IMG/VR virus record: IMGVR_UViG_3300042453_001598
Coordinates: 1-24,216 of that record
Strand: one strand, 5' to 3'
DNA: 24,216 nucleotides
Source of the DNA: a virus
Shown here one piece after another: positions 6,244-16,753 of the stretch. A model generated the notes under the pieces. The model searched no databases. It had not been told where the DNA came from and saw nothing but the letters and a program-made list of their open reading frames with translations. Made by a program: the position numbers and the translations under genes. The first letter of the stretch is position 1. Every line of letters begins with the position of its first letter.

Positions 6244-6487
6244 TGCCTGTCTTTCCAGGCTGTCACTCGTTTATTTTGCGCTCTCTGGACTTTATGAGTT
6301 AAGCCCTGTTAACCGTAAGCGTTTCGGTTCGTCTGCAATAATATGTAAACCTGTGACGAATTTTCCTTAGCGTTTACATCTTGCTAAGTTGCAAGGGTGG
6401 GATTTGAACCCACAATGTCAGCAAAACTTCGCTTTGCGCTACCCATCCGCTACCTTGCTAAAATGCCTGTCTATTTCCAGGCTGCCA
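6244..6487 (-). repeat. Pair of direct repeats forming hairpins that flank the tRNA-like element
   Basis: Copies at 6244-6265 and 6464-6487 share TGCCTGTCT, then TTCCAGGCTG and CA, differing by a 2-base insertion and one substitution. Each folds as GCCTG/CAGGC with a 6-8 nt loop and, read leftward, is followed by ACTTTT or ATTTTA. They could be weak terminators or processing sites bounding a small RNA, or a trace of duplication/insertion. Confidence 0.55.
6389..6459 (-). tRNA. Degenerate tRNA-like element, anticodon position GAA (Phe-like)
   Basis: Read leftward, the T-arm is textbook: GTGGG-TTCAAAT-CCCAC (complement of 6397-6413). The acceptor stem is GCAAGG/CCTTGC (complement of 6453-6458 and 6391-6396) with an A-A mismatch at the terminal pair. 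The anticodon arm is a perfect GCAAA/TTTGC stem (6421-6425/6433-6437) enclosing GCGAAGT, which puts GAA at positions 34-36. Defects are C instead of U at position 33, only a 2-3 bp D-stem that competes with the anticodon stem, and a 7-nt variable loop. CCA is not encoded. It may be a decayed phage tRNA or a tRNA mimic inside a larger RNA. tRNA detection software and aminoacylation data would decide. Confidence 0.45.
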
Positions 6488-8886: not shown

Positions 8887-9093
8887 TTAAAATCTATTAT
8901 CAAATGAATATTTGCTATTTATTGTTGTTTTATATCCTTCTTTGTCTAATGAAAAAGTTAATACGCAAATGCTATTCATATCTTTTTTAACAAACAATTC
9001 ATTTAAAAGATATTTAAACATATCTTTTTTTGTACTAAATTCTTTTTCAATTTCTGTTTCCCAAGCCGTAACAATGTAAGTTGAGTATTTCAT
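8887..9093 (-). CDS. Small hypothetical protein, 68 aa
   Basis: A 68-residue AT-rich gene beginning MKYSTYIVTAWETEIEKEFS. Alternating strand-helix-strand pattern (KYSTYIVTAW, DMFKYLLNELF, SICVLTFSLD) suggests a compact alpha/beta fold, but I know no family. It is alone between its own promoter (9139-9170) and a terminator (8846-8871), so it may be made at a high level early in infection, as many host-takeover microproteins are. Confidence 0.7.
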   Translation of the reverse strand: MKYSTYIVTAWETEIEKEFSTKKDMFKYLLNELFVKKDMNSICVLTFSLDKEGYKTTINSKYSFDNRF

Positions 9094-9138
9094 TATGTTT
9101 TGTTTTAAGGTGAATCATCGTGTCTTTTTTACGATTAT

Positions 9139-9170
9139 CAAATATACAAAGTATAATTATAATATACAAG
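9139..9170 (-). promoter_or_regulatory. Leftward promoter with conserved 17-bp box
   Basis: Leftward -7 element TATATTTG (complement of 9139-9146), with CTTG (complement of 9167-9170) 20 bases upstream as the -33-like element. Bases 9139-9155 are identical to 4010-4026 and include the inverted repeat TATAC-TTT-GTATA. The start codon of the 68-aa gene is 46 bases downstream. Confidence 0.65.
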
Positions 9171-9198
9171 CATAAAGTAAAAATAAATTAAAATATTT

Positions 9199-9927
9199 TC
9201 ATTTTTTTATCACCTTCCTCCACACTGCCAATTTCTGCGCAATTACTACTGCTCTTTTCATGTTGCCCTGTTCTATTTTCTTTGCATGGCTGCGGATAGT
9301 AAGAAGGTCTAATGACTCTGGTGGCTCTTTGAGTGCAATGGCCTGGGCTTCATCCCATAATGCTCTTTTCTCTCCTTCCTCGTATGTTATCATGTCAAAC
9401 TTTAAGCACATATCATACCAATACAGCGGCACATCTTCAAAGGTCTTACCGGTAAACTCTTTTATCATCGTTGGAAATTCTGCATACAATTTCTCTCTTT
9501 CTGCCTTTCCCCTTTCCTCCATCTGCACCTGGTGTCGGAGTGCTGCTACTTCATTGTCATGGCTTGCTATTATTTTCCTCCGGTAAGTCATATAGCCATT
9601 TAATATTTTGCCAATGGTGTGCATATTTGCTTTGCCATAGAATTTAATATCATCATCAAGTTCTAAACTTTCAGCAGAGAAAAGGCGGAAAGCTATCTCA
9701 ATCTCATTGGCTGCTATTTGCCCAAAGGTCTTTACTATCTCCTTGGCTATGTTGGCAAAGAATGCTAAGTCTCCATCAATGCCGTACATTGGAAAAACCG
9801 AGCTAATAACATTCAATGTTTGTTTGTACGCATCCTTTTGCTCCATGTTGGCAATGCGATTTGATCGGGCGGATATTATTGCCTGCTCGTCGGAGTTACG
9901 CGGTTGGTACTGTGTTAAATTACTCAT
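9199..9927 (-). CDS. Hypothetical protein next to replication initiator, 242 aa
   Basis: A 242-residue soluble protein starting MSNLTQYQPRNSDEQAI. It is predominantly helical, with a long charged helix around residues 120-155 (HDNEVAALRHQVQMEERGKA) that could be coiled coil, and a basic C-terminus (KRAVVIAQKLAVWRKVIKK). No Walker motif or nuclease motif is present, so it is not a helicase or a typical AAA+ loader. Small helical phage proteins placed after an initiator are sometimes helicase loaders or replisome organisers, but I see no motif that shows it. Its ATG lies in copy B of the 25-bp junction repeat and overlaps the HNH stop by eight bases. Confidence 0.75.
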   Translation of the reverse strand: MSNLTQYQPRNSDEQAIISARSNRIANMEQKDAYKQTLNVISSVFPMYGIDGDLAFFANIAKEIVKTFGQIAANEIEIAFRLFSAESLELDDDIKFYGKANMHTIGKILNGYMTYRRKIIASHDNEVAALRHQVQMEERGKAEREKLYAEFPTMIKEFTGKTFEDVPLYWYDMCLKFDMITYEEGEKRALWDEAQAIALKEPPESLDLLTIRSHAKKIEQGNMKRAVVIAQKLAVWRKVIKK

Positions 9928-10297
9928 TAGTGAATTGTTTTAGTTGTTCAAAATAAAATACTATCTCTCTGGGAGTTTCATGTACTAAATAATACTTTTT
10001 AGCAAATCTATAGTTAGATGAATATGAATTTAACCTATGTATCTGTTCTTTGATTTCATTGCGAAATGCTTCAAGTGAGTAAGCTGATTTCCATTTATTA
10101 CACACGCGACAACTGGGCATCAAGTTGTCAATATCATTTAGTTCCTTGTCAGTATATATAAAATTAGATTTTAAACTGAAACTTAATTTACTAACCAGAT
10201 GATCCACTTGCATTTCTTTAATGGTCATTTTTATTCCACAATACGCACAATGTCCATTGTACTTTTCGTGTATAAATTTTCTTGTTTCTTTATTCAT
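9920..10297 (-). CDS. HNH endonuclease inserted between two genes
   Basis: A 125-residue stand-alone HNH nuclease of the McrA-like/zinc type. The beta-beta-alpha metal motif is evident: CAYC (C17, C20), QVDHLVS with D32-H33, N58, and CRVCN (C63, C66, N67); the two CxxC pairs bind structural zinc. It would cut double-stranded DNA, plausibly as a homing-type nuclease. The gene is bracketed by a 25-bp direct repeat (9921-9945 and 10291-10315), so its last residues LKQFTNE copy the end of the upstream gene, and its start sits where the downstream gene's start would have been. This is a seamless insertion structure. Confidence 0.9.
   Translation of the reverse strand: MNKETRKFIHEKYNGHCAYCGIKMTIKEMQVDHLVSKLSFSLKSNFIYTDKELNDIDNLMPSCRVCNKWKSAYSLEAFRNEIKEQIHRLNSYSSNYRFAKKYYLVHETPREIVFYFEQLKQFTNE
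9921..9945 (-). repeat. Junction direct repeat, copy B (downstream side of the HNH gene)
   Basis: Matches 10291-10315 at 23 of 25 positions. Read leftward it encodes KQFTNE-stop of the HNH gene and, shifted one frame, the ATG of the 242-aa gene. Both differences from copy A fall at third codon positions of the KQFTNE frame and are synonymous there. The repeat period is exactly 370 bases. Confidence 0.9.
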
Positions 10298-10499
10298 TAG
10301 TAAATTGTTTTAGTTTGTGATAGGTTCTCTGGTACTCTATATACTTCTGCCTTTCCTCATCGGTCATGGCATGGTACTTAGCACGGAGGCGGTGGTTCTC
10401 TCGTTCGCGGATCTTCTTGTAAGTATATTCGTTCATAGTTGCGCGGTACTTCTTCATGTACTCACGCATATACGCATTGCGGTCTTTTTTACATTGCAT
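10290..10499 (-). CDS. Small basic protein, 69 aa, zinc-ribbon-like N-terminus
   Basis: Begins MQCKKDRNAYMREYMKKYRA and continues with Arg/Glu/Tyr-rich helices (YKKIRERENHRLRAKYHAMT, then DEERQKYIEYQRTYH). The start is taken as the ATG at 10499, because the upstream extension is a TTG inside the preceding gene. The composition resembles the N-terminal 'C..C...R..Y...R' segments found in front of many HNH domains, which is curious because an HNH gene follows directly. The C-terminal LKQFTNE is repeated at the end of that HNH gene. Overlaps the previous gene by 11 bases and the next by 8. Likely nucleic-acid binding, by charge only. Confidence 0.65.
   Translation of the reverse strand: MQCKKDRNAYMREYMKKYRATMNEYTYKKIRERENHRLRAKYHAMTDEERQKYIEYQRTYHKLKQFTNE
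10291..10315 (-). repeat. Junction direct repeat, copy A (upstream side of the HNH gene)
   Basis: Partner of 9921-9945. Read leftward, it contains the KQFTNE-stop codons of the 69-aa gene and the ATG of the HNH gene. It marks the boundary at which the 370-bp HNH unit entered or was duplicated. Confidence 0.9.
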
Positions 10500-10728
10500 A
10501 CATTCCAATATTTACTATTTCAACTTCAACTTCTTCCCAGTATGAATGTGCTTTGTATTTTTTTTCATCCCACTTCTCTTGCTGCATTTGCATTGCAAAA
10601 AATAGAGCGCATTGTTCAGCGAGAATTGTAACAAGAATTTCATTTCCCAATTCACCTCCAATAGCTGTGATAAGGATATGGTAGTGGTCAAAGAGCTCCT
10701 TGGCCTTTTCTTTGGGTGTTTGTTTCAT
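10489..10728 (-). CDS. Small phage protein, paralogue of the next gene upstream
   Basis: A 79-residue protein starting MKQTPKEKAKELFDHYHILI (ATG at 10728, overlapping the previous stop by four bases; upstream in-frame codons lie inside that gene). It shares with the 90-aa neighbour the frame MKQTPKxKAxEL, a central helix containing AEQCALFFAMQM (NAKQCVLIAVDEI in the paralogue), and a C-terminal YWEEVEVEI (FWQKVKEEI in the paralogue). This small family is frequent in Bacteroidota phages, often in tandem copies, without known function. Copies are divergent at the DNA level apart from the first codons. Confidence 0.75.
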   Translation of the reverse strand: MKQTPKEKAKELFDHYHILITAIGGELGNEILVTILAEQCALFFAMQMQQEKWDEKKYKAHSYWEEVEVEIVNIGMYAM

Positions 10729-10997
10729 AGCTTTTCTATTTCTTCTTTTACTTTTTGCCAAAAATGAAGTGCTTGCGTTTTTTGAGCATCGTAATAATAT
10801 CGATGTTCTCCGCCACAATCATCCCAATCAGCAAAGTTTGGGTTTAGTGGGCTTGAATTTAAAATTTCATCCACTGCAATTAAAACACATTGTTTAGCGT
10901 TTATTAATGCTCTTTTATCATCAAATCCATTCCAATCTACATAAGGCATATAATTAAGTACTAATTCTTCAGCCTTTTTTTTAGGTGTTTGTTTCAT
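10725..10997 (-). CDS. Small phage protein, paralogue in tandem
   Basis: A 90-residue protein, MKQTPKKKAEELVLNYMPYV at the start, NAKQCVLIAVDEIL in the middle, and ALHFWQKVKEEIEKL at the end. The pattern 'KxKAxEL ... NAKQCALIAVDEI ... FWQxVKxEI' is a recurring short phage family of unknown role. It overlaps the initiator stop (ATGA, 10994-10997) and its tandem paralogue (10725-10728), so the initiator and both copies are translated as one coupled block. Dimerisation through the conserved amphipathic helix is plausible but not shown. Confidence 0.75.
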   Translation of the reverse strand: MKQTPKKKAEELVLNYMPYVDWNGFDDKRALINAKQCVLIAVDEILNSSPLNPNFADWDDCGGEHRYYYDAQKTQALHFWQKVKEEIEKL

Positions 10998-11920
10998 GGT
11001 TGAAATTCATTTACTAAGCGATCAATTTCCTCCTGCCTCCGCTTCTCCTGTGCGGCAGGGTTGGAATACATAAATTTAGTATAGATGTTATTTGCCTGGG
11101 AGTAAATATTGCTAATAGTAAAATTAGCTTTAAGCCACTTGTCGCTAATTTGCCATGCAGCCGTGGTAAACATTCTTACCATTTCATCGGGTGCCTGCTC
11201 ACTGGCACTTACCTTCTTTAGCCAACTTACTAACTTTTTGCAGTTTGCACCATCCTTGGCTGTCATGATATAATTATTCTTGTCAGAAGGATACGTAACA
11301 CCTGCAAGCCGTTCATAGGTGGAGGCAAAGGCGGTAAAGCATAAGTAGGTCTCGGAGGGCTCGCGATCCTTTACCTTTTCTTTTTTCGCAAAATTTTCTT
11401 TTGGGTCAGAGTCAGTGTTCAGAGAATCATGGTAAGCCTGGCGAGAGAAAGGATTTTTAATTTTTGTTTTGGGGAGTGGATTTTCAAATTCACATTCTAA
11501 AATATTATTAATTGTACTATTATTTTTAGTACTATTATATGTCGGATTATTTTCCGTCTTTTTTCGGATATTTTTCCGAGTATCATCGGATTTATTTCCG
11601 ACTGTTGTGTTTAGACTATTCCATTGCTTTCCTTTTTCAGTAATTCTTATACAATCTTTTTCGCCAAATTTCTTCCAATCAATTACTCCTTTAGTTTGTA
11701 ATGATTTGTATAAACGATAAACTGTATCTGATTTATCTGAAATAATAGGCATTTCATCTATGGCTTTATTTCTACTTGCAAAAAACCATACTTGATTATC
11801 TACAAATATTTGTTCTGCCCAGGATGGCACAGAGTATAAAAAGCTAAACATTGCAGCTTCGCTTAAACTTAATCCCCATGCTATACTATGTGTCTGGTCT
11901 ATAGATATTGTGTATTTCAT
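10994..11920 (-). CDS. Winged-helix replication initiation / DnaD-like protein
   Basis: A 308-residue protein of the phage replication-initiator type. Residues 1-105 form a winged-helix domain (LSLSEAAMFSFLYS at the start, SDTVYRLYKSLQTKGVIDWK as recognition helix and wing, and CIRITEKGKQW closing it). Residues 106-190 are a low-complexity, Asn/Lys/Thr-rich linker. Residues 195-300 form a helical domain with SDKWLKANFTISNIYSQANN, a phrase common to C-terminal parts of phage replication proteins that bind origin DNA and recruit the helicase. Family resemblance is good; the origin itself is not identified and, as in lambda O, could lie within the gene (the linker DNA at about 11460-11590 is AT-rich and repetitive). 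Confidence 0.78.
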   Translation of the reverse strand: MKYTISIDQTHSIAWGLSLSEAAMFSFLYSVPSWAEQIFVDNQVWFFASRNKAIDEMPIISDKSDTVYRLYKSLQTKGVIDWKKFGEKDCIRITEKGKQWNSLNTTVGNKSDDTRKNIRKKTENNPTYNSTKNNSTINNILECEFENPLPKTKIKNPFSRQAYHDSLNTDSDPKENFAKKEKVKDREPSETYLCFTAFASTYERLAGVTYPSDKNNYIMTAKDGANCKKLVSWLKKVSASEQAPDEMVRMFTTAAWQISDKWLKANFTISNIYSQANNIYTKFMYSNPAAQEKRRQEEIDRLVNEFQP

Positions 11921-11922
11921 TA

Positions 11923-12432
11923 TTAAACTGTTATTTTATTATCCATTAAATTAAAAATATGTTCAATTTCATCCATTTCAAGATTAAACCATTCTCCTCT
12001 AACATTTTTATTAGAAAATAAAGAATGTAAATATCTTTCACTTACTATGCTTTCTAAACATTTATTAATAAGTATAATTTTTGGTGTTTGGCTTGATAAA
12101 GTTTTTTCTCTAAATTCTGGATTTATTGATTTACCTATTTTATATAAACCACTTATTTCATCATACATAATGTAAGTAAATCTTATTTTATTAGAATCCT
12201 TAATACATTTATCAACATTTACAATTTTATTAGTAAAATGATTTTGATTTTCAGATATCATTTTCTTAAAATAATCAATTAAATATGATACAGATGTACC
12301 TTCATCACATTCAAAATGTAAAATTATTTCAGATTTATTTTTACTAAAACTTTTAGTAGATATTATAGTAATATCTAAATCTGATTTTTTATAATCTTTT
12401 AATGCTTCTTGTAAAAAATAATCAATTCCCAT
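11923..12432 (-). CDS. GIY-YIG family protein, T5orf172/MUG113 type
   Basis: A 169-residue protein whose C-terminal half is a T5orf172/MUG113-type GIY-YIG nuclease domain: FTYIMYDEISGLYKIGKS (residues 85-102, containing Y-I-M and Y-K-I-G in place of GIY and YIG), R108 after NPEFREKTL, E132 within SERYLHSLF, and GEWFNL (146-151). The N-terminal 80 residues are of unknown fold. The coding DNA is markedly AT-rich (by my count about 17-20% GC in bases 12181-12300), lower than the flanking genes, which suggests recent acquisition. Its start is 12 nt downstream of the U-tract at 12445-12449, so expression needs read-through. Likely DNA cleavage; mobile homing function is inferred. Confidence 0.82.
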   Translation of the reverse strand: MGIDYFLQEALKDYKKSDLDITIISTKSFSKNKSEIILHFECDEGTSVSYLIDYFKKMISENQNHFTNKIVNVDKCIKDSNKIRFTYIMYDEISGLYKIGKSINPEFREKTLSSQTPKIILINKCLESIVSERYLHSLFSNKNVRGEWFNLEMDEIEHIFNLMDNKITV

Positions 12433-12437
12433 TTGTT

Positions 12438-12542
12438 TTAAAATAAAAAGAGCCCAATAGGTGCAAGACTACTGGGCTCATGTGAACAAAGTTTATTTTG
12501 TTCGAAATTCTTTAGGTGACTTGCACACCATCTAAAGAACAT
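12438..12542 (-). ncRNA. Candidate structured leader RNA or small RNA with three hairpins and complementary loops
   Basis: Read leftward from about 12541: hairpin H3 (stem of 12508-12515 with 12532-12539, TTCTTTAG/CTAAAGAA, plus inner GTG/CAC); hairpin H2 (12484-12490 with 12497-12503, GAACAAA/TTTGTTC); and H1 (12450-12456 with 12473-12479, GAGCCCA/TGGGCTC, extended by TAG/CTA), then a T-tract. The H3 loop (TGCAAGT) and H1 loop (TCTTGCAC) are complementary over six to seven bases (12461-12467 with 12520-12526), a kissing-loop geometry. A promoter-like TATCTTTG lies immediately upstream. The same strand is also open for 34 codons (12542-12438), so a leader peptide is an alternative. No transcript evidence is available. 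Confidence 0.5.
12445..12479 (-). terminator. Leftward intrinsic terminator ending the H3-H2-H1 element
   Basis: Stem 12450-12456/12473-12479 (7 bp, extended by three more after one mismatch), with T5 then ATTTT on the leftward strand. The start codon of the GIY-YIG gene is 12 nt further on. Confidence 0.88.
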
Positions 12543-12544
12543 TG

Positions 12545-12552
12545 CAAAGATA
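12545..12552 (-). promoter_or_regulatory. Leftward -7 element TATCTTTG
   Basis: Complement of 12545-12552 matches TAnnTTTG exactly. The predicted start of transcription falls at about 12541-12538, right at the 5' strand of hairpin H3. No -33 TTTG is visible at 19-23 bases upstream, so strength is uncertain. Confidence 0.45.
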
Positions 12553-12560
12553 ATACTTTT

Positions 12561-12794
12561 CTAATTCTTTTCATTTATTTGTTTCACCTCATTCCTATCT
12601 TCTATAAAGCCACTGCCATGACTCCCTCCCACTATCTTTAGATACTGGTTCTCAACACTGGCACTATTAATAATCACCTGTGCAACATCTGCCACAACCT
12701 TGGCCTTGGCAATGTCGTAAGTGGAATCGGGGTCGGTCAGTTCTTCGAGAACGGAAAATAGGTGGTTGCGTAAATCGCTGATTTTGTTCTTCAT
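12561..12794 (-). CDS. Hypothetical phage protein, 77 aa
   Basis: A 77-residue protein beginning MKNKISDLRNHLFSVLEELT. It resembles a small phage family of the form 'I.DLRNHLF..LE.L.D......A K.V..VAQ.II..A.VE..Y', seen in many prophages next to early genes, with no assigned function. The middle helix KAKVVADVAQVIINSASVEN contains the conserved core. Start overlaps the preceding stop by four bases (12791-12794). It is the last gene before the promoter/RNA element at 12438-12552. Confidence 0.75.
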   Translation of the reverse strand: MKNKISDLRNHLFSVLEELTDPDSTYDIAKAKVVADVAQVIINSASVENQYLKIVGGSHGSGFIEDRNEVKQINEKN

Positions 12795-13006
12795 TTTGTT
12801 AATCTTTTAATTAAGTCGTTAAAATTATCTTGGGTTGTTCTACCATTTCTGCGTTTATCATCGCCAAAAATTTCTAATTTGTATTGCAAATCAAATAGTT
12901 TGTCAAACACTCCTAATTCTTTATAATGAGGATTTTCTACTACTTTGTACTTATACTCTGCCATTGCTTCCGCTAATATCCGAGCTTCATCTTTTGTTAG
13001 TCTCAT
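12791..13006 (-). CDS. Hypothetical phage protein, 71 aa
   Basis: A 71-residue helical protein starting MRLTKDEARILAEAMAEYKY, with a second helix (VFDKLFDLQYKLEIFGDDKR) and a basic end (DLIKRLTK). The N-terminal phrase 'LTKDEARILAEAL.E.KY' occurs in small uncharacterised phage proteins; I cannot give it a role. Overlaps at both ends by four bases (ATGA), coupling it to the HNH gene upstream and the 77-aa gene downstream. Confidence 0.75.
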   Translation of the reverse strand: MRLTKDEARILAEAMAEYKYKVVENPHYKELGVFDKLFDLQYKLEIFGDDKRRNGRTTQDNFNDLIKRLTK

Positions 13007-13647
13007 TTTACAATGTCTTTAATCTGGTTAATTAATATTTGCACTTCTTTTAATTCCTGCGGTAATTGTTTATGATTGCGATTTAACATAGCCAAATCTT
13101 TCCTGGTTACAAGGCAGAGGTTACTAATGTCATCATTGTATTTATTACCATCCAATTTAAACACACACATATCTTTAGGCACTGGGCCGTGGACTTGTTC
13201 CCAGTTGTATCGGGCAAGGCTCATCCATTTATGATTAGCGTATTTAATTTCATTATAAGAGTTAATGTCTCTAATACTACCAATCGGCATTTCATTATGT
13301 GGTACATTACCTTTTTTAAATACACCGGTTAGTTTTTCTATATGCTGTGGGGACATTTTTTGTCCTTTGTTCCAGGGAATGTGTCCTTTATGAAAACAAG
13401 TTCTTCTTACTATGCTACTTGTTTTGACATTTGCCCATTGTGCTATAGATACATTACGGCAATTAGTTGTAATATACTCCTTTGTTTTCCTTAAACCCAT
13501 GGCATAGGCTTTGTTGCTGATAGATGTAGAAGTGTGAGGCATCCAGGTGGCAATGACCTTGTTAGGAGTGTTAGCATATAATCTTCTAATTATTTCTATC
13601 TCCTCATTACTAAACATCTGTTTATTCCTTTTACTACCTTTTACCAT
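13003..13647 (-). CDS. HNH endonuclease with N-terminal helix-turn-helix
   Basis: A 214-residue protein. Residues 10-55 (FSNEEIEIIRRLYANTPNKV, then SISNKAYAMGLRKT) form a Myb/HTH-like DNA-binding segment that often precedes phage HNH nucleases. Residues 85-118 include FHKGHIPWNKGQK, a NUMOD-like motif. Residues 135-192 form the nuclease: YANHKWMSLARYNWEQVHGP with H153, then VFKLDGNKYNDDISNLCLVT. The usual His of the central H-x-D-G-N is replaced here by K164/L165, as in a phage-type subset with F-x-D-G-N. Likely homing-type nuclease. It shares four bases with the downstream gene and lies nine bases after the MAF-like gene. No flanking repeats were found, unlike the 9920 HNH. Confidence 0.83.
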   Translation of the reverse strand: MVKGSKRNKQMFSNEEIEIIRRLYANTPNKVIATWMPHTSTSISNKAYAMGLRKTKEYITTNCRNVSIAQWANVKTSSIVRRTCFHKGHIPWNKGQKMSPQHIEKLTGVFKKGNVPHNEMPIGSIRDINSYNEIKYANHKWMSLARYNWEQVHGPVPKDMCVFKLDGNKYNDDISNLCLVTRKDLAMLNRNHKQLPQELKEVQILINQIKDIVK

Positions 13648-13656
13648 GACTAATAA

Positions 13657-14373
13657 TTATAAAACAATAGAATAATCATTACCTTCATGATTGCTATATG
13701 TTAAATCACTTGATCCATACCTTGCAGAAATATGTGTGAAAGTAATCCCTTTTGGTTTTAAAAACTCCTGTAATGATTTAAAACTGTTCATCGTGCGAAT
13801 AGAATGCCCAGTAACAAAATAAGGATCCTCTGGATATAATTCTCTATATTTACTATAATAAGAATGACCTTGAAATTGACCTCCATCAAATCCCATTAAA
13901 TAGAATTTTTTAATACCTAAATGCAAACCAAGTCCAATAGCATCAAATAATATACTACCTCCAACAAATAAAGTATTAGGTATTTTTTCTACAATCGGCT
14001 TAACATAGACTTTTGTAGATTCACATACTGGCATACCTTTGTACTTGTAAAAATCTCCTTCCATTTGTGTTACACCTCTTCTTTCATCATTGCAGTCAAA
14101 CTCTGGCAATATGTGTTTGTTAGGATGTTTGTAAATCTCTTCTTGCCATAATTGTAAATATCCTTCTGGTAAATCTTTTACTGTATGGTGATTTATACAA
14201 TAATCGTATTTTATTTTATCATCTTTCCACATATCATTTACACAAATAATTAAATCGTCAATCCAAAAACTATTACATATATCTGCATATGGTAAATGAT
14301 CTAATGATGCTCCGCTGCCTATTAATAAACAGCTATCATAATATTTATGTGATAAATTATCTATCCATTTCAT
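13657..14373 (-). CDS. DUF115/MAF_flag10-like protein (putative glycosyltransferase)
   Basis: A 238-residue Rossmann-type protein resembling DUF115 (MptE-like/MAF flagellin-glycosylation family). Motifs are CLLIGSGASLDHL (residues 15-27, nucleotide-binding loop), DLIICVNDMWK, and GGSILFDAIGLGLHLGIKKF then YLMGFDGG and HSYY, equivalent to the 'GG.....AL..A..LG...I.L.G.D.....H' block of the family. The family includes glycosyl/sialyl-type transferases acting on surface sugars and phosphotransferases. In a phage it may modify host glycans, phage structural proteins or nucleotides. It lies one base from the glucosaminidase gene. Substrate unknown; I am fairly sure only of the fold family. Confidence 0.7.
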   Translation of the reverse strand: MKWIDNLSHKYYDSCLLIGSGASLDHLPYADICNSFWIDDLIICVNDMWKDDKIKYDYCINHHTVKDLPEGYLQLWQEEIYKHPNKHILPEFDCNDERRGVTQMEGDFYKYKGMPVCESTKVYVKPIVEKIPNTLFVGGSILFDAIGLGLHLGIKKFYLMGFDGGQFQGHSYYSKYRELYPEDPYFVTGHSIRTMNSFKSLQEFLKPKGITFTHISARYGSSDLTYSNHEGNDYSIVL

Positions 14374-14374
14374 T

Positions 14375-15136
14375 TTAATATTCCATTTCGGGAAAACTGG
14401 CTTTTACTGTCCAGTATTCAGTTGATAAATTACTTCTTACTTTCCAAAGATTACTGGTATGGTATCCGCTTTTGTAAAAGCATTTACAAGTAGCATCTAC
14501 AATGTTTTTAGCACTCATGCCTCTGTTATACTTAGCAAACATATATCTTTTGCAATTCTTGTACCTTGGTAAGTTTAAAACATTTGCCCAGCCTTGCACC
14601 ATGGCATTATAAGAGGAGAAAGCCTGGAAGGCGCAAGGTATCTTTTTACCATTCTTATAACAGTCATCTATAGCATTCATCTTCTTACCGGTGCCTCTGT
14701 ATTTTATTCCTCCAGGGTTAAACGCTTTTGCCATTAGTTTACTTTCTATTCCGGCATTGGTTGCCTCAATTATAAAGAAAGCATAAATGACAGAGATAGG
14801 AAGATCAGTTTTCTTGTGCATAGTGTAAAAGAAATCTTCATACATAAAGCCTAACCATATACGACGTAAATCTACCAGACTTTTATTCTTTAATCTTCTA
14901 AAGCCTTGTCCTTCTAAAAAGTCCTGCAATTCATCTTTGCCCATGTTTTTAATCTGTGTTCCTGGCAGATTCTTCATGTCAATAATCATAAGATTATCTT
15001 GTGGATATTCTTTTGCAGGATTAGGTCTATTGTCCTTGCTTTTGGCATTTGTACCTTTGCCGGAAAAGGAGATAAACAGCGATGAGATAACGAGGATTAA
15101 AAGCAGATAGCCTTTAATTTTTGTTTGTTTGTTCAT
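14375..15136 (-). CDS. Secreted glucosaminidase-domain protein
   Basis: A 253-residue protein with an N-terminal signal or anchor (basic MNKQTKIKGY, then hydrophobic LLLILVISSLFISFSG), so it should act in the periplasm. Residues 105-240 resemble the glucosaminidase (FlgJ/LytG-like) domain: SVIYAFFIIEATNAGIESKL with putative catalytic E124, FNPGGIKYRGTGKK in place of the usual N-N-L-F-G-I-K, CAFQAFSSYNAMVQGWANVL and the conserved RYKNC segment. It would cleave the glycan backbone. Unlike the amidase/holin pair it is encoded in the early leftward operon, 23 bases after SSB, so it may serve remodelling or exclusion of other phages. Three or more Cys could form disulfides. Confidence 0.75.
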   Translation of the reverse strand: MNKQTKIKGYLLLILVISSLFISFSGKGTNAKSKDNRPNPAKEYPQDNLMIIDMKNLPGTQIKNMGKDELQDFLEGQGFRRLKNKSLVDLRRIWLGFMYEDFFYTMHKKTDLPISVIYAFFIIEATNAGIESKLMAKAFNPGGIKYRGTGKKMNAIDDCYKNGKKIPCAFQAFSSYNAMVQGWANVLNLPRYKNCKRYMFAKYNRGMSAKNIVDATCKCFYKSGYHTSNLWKVRSNLSTEYWTVKASFPEMEY

Positions 15137-15159
15137 ACTAATTGGTTTATAAATGTTGT

Positions 15160-15543
15160 TTAAAATGGCAAATCTTCGCCAAGGTCTAATTTACCTACTG
15201 GCGGAGTAGTTGTGTGTGGTGTAGCTTCTGCGGTAGGCTTGCCTCCAAATTCTAAAGATGTGATTCTGCAGTTTATCATACCAACAGGCTCTCCGTTTTT
15301 ATTATAGGCATTAACTGTGCCAGATCCTTCTGCGACAATATAAGTGCCTTTTGTAATGAATGGCGCAAGTTTAACGGCTCTTTCTCCCCATACAGAACAA
15401 CCTACCCAGATTGTTTTTTCTCCAGGACTTGCACCATACACTTTTTCGGTGTGGGCAATAGAAAAAGAGCATACAGTTGTATCTCCAACTGTTTTTAATT
15501 CAGCATCACTGCCTACTCTTCCAGAAACTATTAATTTTATCAT
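15160..15543 (-). CDS. ssb: Single-stranded DNA-binding protein
   Basis: A 127-residue OB-fold SSB: MIKLIVSGRVGSDAELKTVG, SFSIAHTEK, TIWVGCSVWGERAVKLAPFI, YIVAEGSGTV and the C-terminal acidic tip DLGEDLPF, which recruits partner proteins. The length is short for bacterial SSB (about 170) but typical for phage versions; the linker is brief. It binds ssDNA at forks and in recombination. It is the first gene of the leftward half, 24 bases downstream of the putative -7 element at 15560-15567, so it is an early gene. Confidence 0.93.
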   Translation of the reverse strand: MIKLIVSGRVGSDAELKTVGDTTVCSFSIAHTEKVYGASPGEKTIWVGCSVWGERAVKLAPFITKGTYIVAEGSGTVNAYNKNGEPVGMINCRITSLEFGGKPTAEATPHTTTPPVGKLDLGEDLPF

Positions 15544-15555
15544 AATTATTTTTTA

Positions 15556-15587
15556 TTTGCAAATATATATAAAATTGTATAACTTTG
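15556..15587 (+). promoter_or_regulatory. Rightward promoter, TTTG-N20-TAACTTTG
   Basis: TTTG at 15556-15559, 20 bases, then TAACTTTG at 15580-15587, matching the Bacteroidota -33/-7 consensus. Transcription should start near 15592, and the first gene (RHH-like) starts at 15606. It drives the rightward packaging/head operon. Confidence 0.75.
15560..15567 (-). promoter_or_regulatory. Leftward -7 element facing SSB
   Basis: Complement of 15560-15567 reads TATATTTG, the same -7 core as in the 4010 and 9139 promoters. It interleaves with the rightward promoter, so the two would compete for RNA polymerase. No -33 TTTG is visible. Confidence 0.5.
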
Positions 15588-15605
15588 CATAAATAATATA
15601 AAAAA

Positions 15606-15770
15606 ATGGATGTACTAACGAAAAAAAAGAAAAGCGTGTTATTAGATGAGGATAGTCATAGGATGCTCATTACTACACAGATTAAACTATCGGCAAAGAC
15701 TGGAAAGAAGATGCCACTGGTTGAGATTATTAATTATCTATGTGCAGATTGGCAAAAAAACAATAAATGA
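15606..15770 (+). CDS. Small ribbon-helix-helix-like protein, 54 aa (easily missed)
   Basis: ATG at 15606, stop TGA at 15768-15770 overlapping the glycosyltransferase start (ATGA). The product has a basic N-terminus (MDVLTKKKK), a strand-like SVLLDEDSHRMLITTQIKLS and then KTGKKMPLVEIINYLCADW, which is the shape of a CopG/Arc-type RHH protein (short beta strand, helix, turn at T-G-K, helix). RHH proteins bind DNA as dimers and usually repress promoters. Its place as first gene after the divergent promoter fits an autoregulating switch between leftward and rightward transcription. The family call is by pattern; it could also be a partner of a nearby nuclease. Confidence 0.65.
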   Translation: MDVLTKKKKSVLLDEDSHRMLITTQIKLSAKTGKKMPLVEIINYLCADWQKNNK

Positions 15771-16753
15771 AGGCTACTATATTTACATCTTCTAAGAGTC
15801 AAGCGACAGACTATTACCGCACTATTGGGCCGTTTTCGCGATTAGCTCTGCAAAAGAAATTTGAATTAGTTATCTGCCAACAAGAAAAGGCAGCCTGGTA
15901 TGATATTTATAACACCGATATAGTAATTATTCAGCGTCCTAATTCAACTGCCTCCCTTGGTATAATGGCAGATGCAAAGCGAATGGGAAAGGCTGTTATA
16001 ATTGACTTTGACGATCACTTATTAAATGTGCCGGAAGATAATCCTGCGTCTGCTTATTTTAGCAATCCGCAGGTGCAAAAGCAAATACAAGATACTTTCT
16101 TATTTGCCGATGTCATTATAGTATCTACTCAAAAGCTATATGACTTATATAAACCTTTGAGCCATGATAAGCCTATGTTTGTCATACCTAATGGATGGTC
16201 ACCTACTGACCTACCTATGACAAAGGTGGAAGAGCAGCATAATCCTCCAAGGTTTGTTTGGCGTGGTGGCAGTACACACTTTGCAGACTTACACACAATA
16301 AAGGAGCAGCTTAACAAGGCGATGGAGTTAGATACTGAATTTACATTCTTTGGTATGCCTAAGTTCATGATGTACGACTTTAGCAAGAAGGCTAACTTTG
16401 TAGAATGGAATAGTATGTTTATCTATTTTACATTCATGCAAAGAATAGAAGGTGACTATGGTTACTATCCATTAGTAAGAAATGAGTTTAATGAGAGTAA
16501 GTCTAATATCTTTGCTATTGAATGTTTAGCAAATGGTATGCCAGTCTTAGCAGATGTTTACTTTAAGGAGTTTAATATACCTGGTGTAATGTGTTACGAT
16601 ACACCTCACCAGTTTTTTGACCTTGTATTAGCTATTATAGCTGGCAACATTAATAAGCTATCTCTCGTTAAGGATGGAAGGAAGTACCTTAATGAAGTGT
16701 TACACATAGACTTACTTAATCAGCAGCGATACAAGATACTAAAAGGACTATAG
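15767..16753 (+). CDS. Glycosyltransferase (GT4-like)
   Basis: A 328-residue GT-B type glycosyltransferase. Segments seen: TDYYRTIGPFSRLALQ near the N-terminus, AVIIDFDDHLLNVPEDNPAS (residues 75-94), VSTQKLYDLYKP, a domain linker with VIPNGWSP, WRGGSTHFADL (the acceptor/phosphate loop), and NEFNESKSNIFAIECLANGM followed by PVLA, resembling the donor-binding E-x7-E region. It would move a sugar onto an unknown acceptor (host surface glycan, phage protein or DNA). No signal peptide, so cytoplasmic. Overlaps the small upstream gene by four bases. Neighbour to the terminase block, an unusual place, but phages of Bacteroidota often carry such genes. Confidence 0.8.
   Translation: MKATIFTSSKSQATDYYRTIGPFSRLALQKKFELVICQQEKAAWYDIYNTDIVIIQRPNSTASLGIMADAKRMGKAVIIDFDDHLLNVPEDNPASAYFSNPQVQKQIQDTFLFADVIIVSTQKLYDLYKPLSHDKPMFVIPNGWSPTDLPMTKVEEQHNPPRFVWRGGSTHFADLHTIKEQLNKAMELDTEFTFFGMPKFMMYDFSKKANFVEWNSMFIYFTFMQRIEGDYGYYPLVRNEFNESKSNIFAIECLANGMPVLADVYFKEFNIPGVMCYDTPHQFFDLVLAIIAGNINKLSLVKDGRKYLNEVLHIDLLNQQRYKILKGL

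Follow-up and report, generated by a model that had tools for sequence, protein, structure and literature searches.

A three-hairpin RNA element with covarying kissing loops and a terminator-like third hairpin in the leaders of phage replication and DNA-modification operons

The put RNA of phage HK022 consists of two hairpins, with no kissing contact and no terminator of its own. In the late leader of phage lambda (pR′-tR′), a constitutive-looking promoter is followed by a short leader, a terminator and then the operon, and the Q protein acts there by way of a site in the DNA and a polymerase pause; a kissing RNA is not involved. Pairing between RNAs is a feature of other systems. The terminated leader and the read-through mRNA of Gifsy-1 IsrK interact, and the CI RNA of P4 has been discussed alongside them (PMC4825925). 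In the guanidine-IV riboswitch a kissing loop hinders completion of the terminator and raises read-through (PMC11611296), and the prohead RNA of phi29 uses inter-molecular 4-bp pairing in the packaging motor (PMC7357161).

Here we describe an RNA element of an uncultivated tailed phage, found in a virus record of 24,216 bases (the window, that is, the whole stretch of DNA that was analysed). Like put, it is a promoter-proximal structured phage RNA heading an operon, but it has three hairpins, a kissing contact and a U-tract; with lambda pR′-tR′ it shares the order of promoter, short leader, terminator and operon. In logic, IsrK of Gifsy-1 and the P4 CI RNA would be its closest phage analogues: IsrK, P4 CI-seqA-seqC and C4 likewise combine a phage promoter, a structured leader, a terminator, read-through into replication or regulator genes, and RNA-RNA pairing. 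However, the IsrK, P4 CI and C4 antisense RNAs act in trans through complementary strands and belong to prophages, whereas here the contact is a 7-nt loop-loop match within one leader. The phi29 prohead RNA is also a phage RNA of about 100 nt with two complementary loops, but it is not a leader. Finally, kissing in the guanidine-IV riboswitch is ligand-induced and confined to one aptamer class, whereas the present element has more than 20 interchangeable kissing sequences and occurs in phage operons only. The features of the locus, in the direction of transcription, are as follows.

12561..12794, minus strand: 77-aa ORF upstream, same direction (phrog_2044 match)
12545..12552, minus strand: -7 promoter box TATCTTTG, of the Bacteroidota sigma-A type TAnnTTTG (box conserved in homologues)
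12540, minus strand: predicted transcription start, first base of H1 (from the Flavobacterium box position, -12..-5; PMC9723704)
12507..12540, minus strand: hairpin H1 (fold and pair counts)
12520..12526, minus strand: kissing sequence GUGCAAG in the H1 loop (complementary to 12461-12467; covaries in relatives)
12484..12503, minus strand: middle hairpin H2 (fold; 7 pairs with compensatory changes in homologues)
12450..12479, minus strand: terminator-like hairpin H3, 11 bp stem, 8-nt loop (fold and terminator scan)
12461..12467, minus strand: kissing sequence CUUGCAC in the H3 loop (complementary to 12520-12526; covaries in relatives)
12440..12449, minus strand: U-tract UUUUUAUUUU after H3 (kept in homologues)
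11923..12432, minus strand: GIY-YIG/MUG113-type ORF, 169 aa, first gene behind the leader (Pfam MUG113 and T5orf172)
10994..11920, minus strand: replication-type protein, 308 aa, second gene (a phage record names a relative 'replication protein')

The minus strand of 12430-12560 folds into three consecutive hairpins with an MFE of -34.8 kcal/mol (z = -4.4), and none of 200 shuffles gave an equally stable fold. In a terminator scan of 9000-16000, H3 ranks highest, with 11 bp, 6 of them G-C, followed by TTTTTATTTT; a G-C-rich hairpin with its U-tract UUUUUAUUUU, the signature of an intrinsic terminator, is thus present between the promoter box and the first start codon. These results bear out the preliminary description, which had proposed three consecutive hairpins on the leftward strand, the last a terminator, with complementary first and last loops: at the coordinates it gave, GUGCAAG of the H1 loop is the exact reverse complement of CUUGCAC of the H3 loop (7/7). 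Its distance of 12 nt to the GIY-YIG gene has to be corrected, as the ATG of this ORF, at 12432, lies 17 nt past H3 and 7 nt past the U-tract. On the other side, the 77-aa ORF ends 8 nt before the -7 box, so that the upstream promoter DNA lies inside it. This ORF is present in six of ten long relatives, directly upstream of the element in most of those; the annotation of phrog_2044 as 'RNA polymerase beta subunit' looks doubtful. The 308-aa replication-type gene marks the operon in relatives (44 related loci). The leftward cluster of the window also holds two more HNH endonuclease genes (9920-10297 and 13003-13647, minus strand), and a tRNA gene is located at 6389-6459 on the same strand (Rfam RF00005, 34.5 bits).

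Relatives were collected in several ways. Searches with the window proteins led to about 90 IMG/VR loci, and blastn of the element itself returned about 30 divergent copies. Sixteen copies served to build a covariance model (R1) of the three stems only, with the loop-loop pairing left out; of 36 related contigs, 31 gave a hit with it. Together with loci from a DNA-pattern scan, R1 hits make up a first set of 89 hits, or 57 unique sequences. A second set was fetched via two neighbouring genes, the ParB-like/methyltransferase and the replication initiator, and yielded 70 hits with a rebuilt model (R2), 37 of the sequences being new; since some of the 70 hits sit on first-set contigs, unique sequences are the proper count. 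In total, about 94 different natural copies were obtained, all from IMG/VR phage contigs. Weak minus-strand model hits, with E-values no better than 0.0002, coincide with true copies on the opposite strand and were treated as self-complement noise. Contigs G002 and G242 carry one locus twice, in two versions (L006/L137 and L135/L136), probably because the assembly joined strain variants whose contig ends overlap, and both were left out of the count of genomes with two modules.

Although the loop-loop pairing was not part of model R1, it is kept throughout. All 57 unique first-set copies have a loop-loop match of 6-8 bp, the sole imperfect one being L131 (a 6-bp match with an A-C mismatch at the seventh position), and the 37 new second-set sequences all retain the match as well. 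At the same time, more than 20 different kissing sequences occur among relatives, and an H3 loop compared with H1 of another type gives best matches of mostly 3-5. In the first set, 99.0% of the cells of the kissing helix are paired (57 distinct rows, one G-U in 393 cells), compared with 29-43% in slid control versions of the helix; all seven kissing pairs have changed on both sides, with 112 double-change cells against 27.5 in shuffles. The second set gave a similar picture, with 100% of 276 cells paired and 78 double-change cells against 17.0 in shuffles. The smallest such change is seen between L121 and L109, which differ at 2 positions in 97 nt, a G->C in the H1 loop and a C->G in the H3 loop, belonging to one kissing pair, while L064 and L121 have switched the loop pair in otherwise near-identical elements. 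A tree computed without the kissing columns implies at least 24 changes of kissing type, a rough figure because the element is short and recombining. The stems are conserved in the same manner: among homologues, compensatory changes affect all ten modelled pairs of H3, and in H1 the two basal U-A pairs are invariant and the remaining pairs covary according to pair counts. A free-standing descriptor (H1, H3 with U-tract, loop complement) gave 74 hits of at least 7 bp in 679 kb of related loci and 0-1 in dinucleotide shuffles. Covariation analysis over homologous phage regions, which the preliminary description had put forward as one of its checks, found both stems and loop complementarity conserved, and at the level of sequence the covariation in about 94 copies identifies a structured RNA with true kissing loops.

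The complementarity ends at the edges of the loops, which indicates a loop-loop contact of two intact hairpins rather than a long alternative helix: past the loops and into the H3 arm it is at chance level (-2.7 kcal/mol within the same copy and -3.3 kcal/mol between mismatched copies). An extended antiterminator, in which the H1 loop and 3′ arm would pair with the 5′ arm of H3, had been hinted at by prefix folds in about half of the copies; it was rejected because mismatched copies extend just as well. A non-exhaustive search for further antiterminators yielded no conserved alternative helix. Moreover, kissing and a complete H3 stem are not mutually exclusive, so kissing need not switch anything. 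The two loops could instead pair between molecules and give RNA dimers or rings, as in the phi29 prohead RNA, which likewise uses two complementary, non-palindromic loops per molecule (PMC7357161). This is extremely improbable, considering that the element precedes start codons of unrelated genes, that a genome holds one or two different types, and that the large terminase and major capsid protein of the window match those of ordinary tailed phages and not of phi29.

Both flanks of the element are constant as well. A TAnnTTT[GA] box stands just before H1 in 89/89 first-set homologues, with a spacing of 5-7 nt to the base of H1 in 85 of them, and a TAnnTTT(G/A) box precedes the element in all 70 second-set hits; the -7 element seen directly before the hairpins of the window is thereby corroborated. 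A consistent -33 TTG element is absent among the 89 first-set homologues. The Flavobacterium sigma-A box lies at -12 to -5 (PMC9723704), which would place the start of the transcript at the first base of H1. Downstream, each of the 57 unique homologues has 6-9 T among the nine bases that follow H3, and an ATG-started ORF begins 5-26 nt beyond the model end in all 159 hits (89 of the first set and 70 of the second). The 34-codon frame that is open through the element in the window, and the leader peptide suggested on its basis as the switch of the folding, did not withstand the comparison: 14 of the 57 unique copies have no start codon, lengths range over 7-60 codons, and the length of the element is distributed over all three reading frames. 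As neither start codon nor frame nor length is conserved, a leader peptide was rejected. Separately, 18 of the 57 unique copies (e.g. L061, L062, L044, L048 and L071) have an ATG behind AAAGGA at the H1-H2 junction, at the base of H2, which often opens an ORF of 8-9 codons such as MKQIFVSP*, with neither frame nor presence conserved; TTG occupies the junction in 25 other unique copies. The AAAG of H1 is nearly invariant, beside which the AAAGGA-ATG at the junction is curious.

A promoter-proximal, structured RNA that opens long operons of the replication type also brings to mind cis antitermination of the put kind, in which the folded RNA would bind RNA polymerase and make it ignore H3 and the later terminators of the operon; no protein factor would be required. 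We consider this quite improbable, given that put RNA has two hairpins and lacks both kissing and a U-tract, and that an Rfam match is absent.

The genes behind the element are diverse. Downstream ORFs of the first set fall into ten groups at an E-value of 1e-5. ParB-like/DNA methyltransferases follow 44 of the 89 copies, a family in which single linkage may have merged sub-families, and the others include HNH, helicase-HNH, GIY-YIG, Dam, replication proteins and further families. The proposal of an attenuator controlling the GIY-YIG gene is therefore sustained as regards the leader position, with the box on one side and the start codon on the other, but not as regards GIY-YIG specificity, about ten unrelated families following the element. 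Kissing type is independent of the downstream gene family, and 34 pairs of copies share 97% or more of the element sequence yet are followed by unrelated DNA. Such near-identical elements with unrelated DNA behind them show the element to be a cassette, with a promoter module on one side and a gene module on the other; it is a modular 5′ leader. L014, L020, L024, L030, L052, L063, L104 and L120 all carry one identical 92-nt element, though both the promoter before it and the gene behind it differ; genes are exchanged at this site as at a hot spot, the usual cargo being DNA methyltransferases and HNH/GIY-YIG nucleases. The element is dispensable, judging from a leader-less close relative (L013/G031, on the same contig as L053 and L138) in which, at L013:1937 and beyond, the same promoter region (TATCTTTG) is followed by an HNH gene with no element in between. 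The exchange as a cassette before unrelated genes, together with the prediction that the RNA starts with the structured H1, would also suit an unregulated 5′ UTR module, in which the compact kissing fold would shield the mRNA at its 5′ end and H3 would block transcription arriving from upstream, with no switching. We regard this as unlikely: protection needs no U-tract, yet the T-rich stretch is kept in every unique copy, and the natural place for an insulator would be ahead of the promoter, not between promoter and gene.

In many genomes a second copy of the element stands before the replication initiator, and loci with two modules always contain two different kissing types. With so many types in existence, however, chance alone could give a genome two types that differ. 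This bears on the possibility that the terminated leader, of about 95 nt, is a small RNA whose loops pair with other transcripts (its own read-through mRNA, the second module or a co-infecting phage), the kissing types being specificity classes. A promoter and a terminator together would yield an RNA of defined length, the kissing sequences number more than 20, the loop pair has been switched between L064 and L121, all two-module loci hold two different types, and IsrK offers the precedent of a phage leader that terminates into a small RNA and reads through into mRNA (PMC4825925). Nevertheless, the start codon is always 5-26 nt away, as would be the case for a leader, the complementarity lies inside the same molecule and covers 7 nt, and the types of a genome would differ by chance. 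Lysogenic immunity may also be unlikely, as a search restricted to integrases of family PF00589, not of the serine type, gave no match in 20 contigs, which may be incomplete. A stand-alone small RNA is thus less likely than a leader, a possible but rather unlikely explanation. It is clearly unlikely that the element forms a specificity system in trans, in which a terminated leader would recognise leaders with the same loop pair and stop their transcription, so that kissing types would act as immunity or incompatibility groups of co-infecting phages and insulate the two modules of a genome. The two different types per two-module genome were dropped as evidence of such insulation, since chance suffices.

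To place the element among known RNAs, we searched the window and 12 relatives against Rfam 15. Apart from tRNA matches, no family exceeded its gathering cut-off; the best sub-threshold matches, rli38 and Qrr, were far below it, and the C4 and phi29 pRNA models gave no match. A known RNA family was accordingly rejected. Membership in the guanidine-II/IV classes finds no support either, as there is no Rfam match, the loops vary freely with compensation and no conserved ligand pocket was seen. The RNA family is therefore new, while its general kind, a structured 5′ leader with a terminator, is known; in open-access full text we found no description of the three-hairpin kissing architecture. Blastn of three query regions against named phages did not find the element, nor were there significant model hits in the regions of Flavobacterium phages FCL-2 and tant8-1, Croceibacter phage P2559S and Parabacteroides phage PD691P4. 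Flavobacterium and Croceibacter phage regions with related replication genes lack it, and most methyltransferase loci from other lineages of phages are without it. The replication-type gene of the window turned up on a single cellular contig, in a Chitinophagaceae MAG, and the carrier viruses probably infect Bacteroidota. The element was detected in none of 197 genomes of the family of this MAG and none of 395 of its phylum, a soft negative, 10-21 candidates having been scored per genome.

Taken together, the position between promoter and start codon and the terminator signature speak most for a conditional terminator close to the promoter, a role to which we assign about an even chance. In this reading the element would be a cis-acting attenuator in which H1 holds the loop of the terminator. 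In the proposed scenario, a sigma-A-like promoter would start transcription at the first base of H1, and the nascent RNA would fold at once into H1, H2 and H3, with the 7-nt H1 loop pairing with the loop of H3. H3 and the U-tract would serve as a promoter-proximal intrinsic terminator before the start codon of the first gene, at which many transcripts would end. By catching the H3 loop while H3 is being synthesised, the H1 loop may set the level of read-through into the replication and DNA-modification genes; by the guanidine-IV precedent kissing would favour read-through, although the effect may also have the opposite sign. A phage or host factor may adjust this level, with a phage protein, another RNA or the rate of transcription as conceivable triggers; the analysis revealed neither a ligand pocket nor a trans factor for the leader.

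The phages whose replication and DNA-modification operons begin with this leader form a group that we encountered only in contigs from metagenomes. With more than 20 natural, interchangeable loop pairs and a minimal pair of two bases, possible control of a terminator by a tertiary contact to its loop becomes directly testable, and the natural loop pairs could be used as orthogonal parts without further design.
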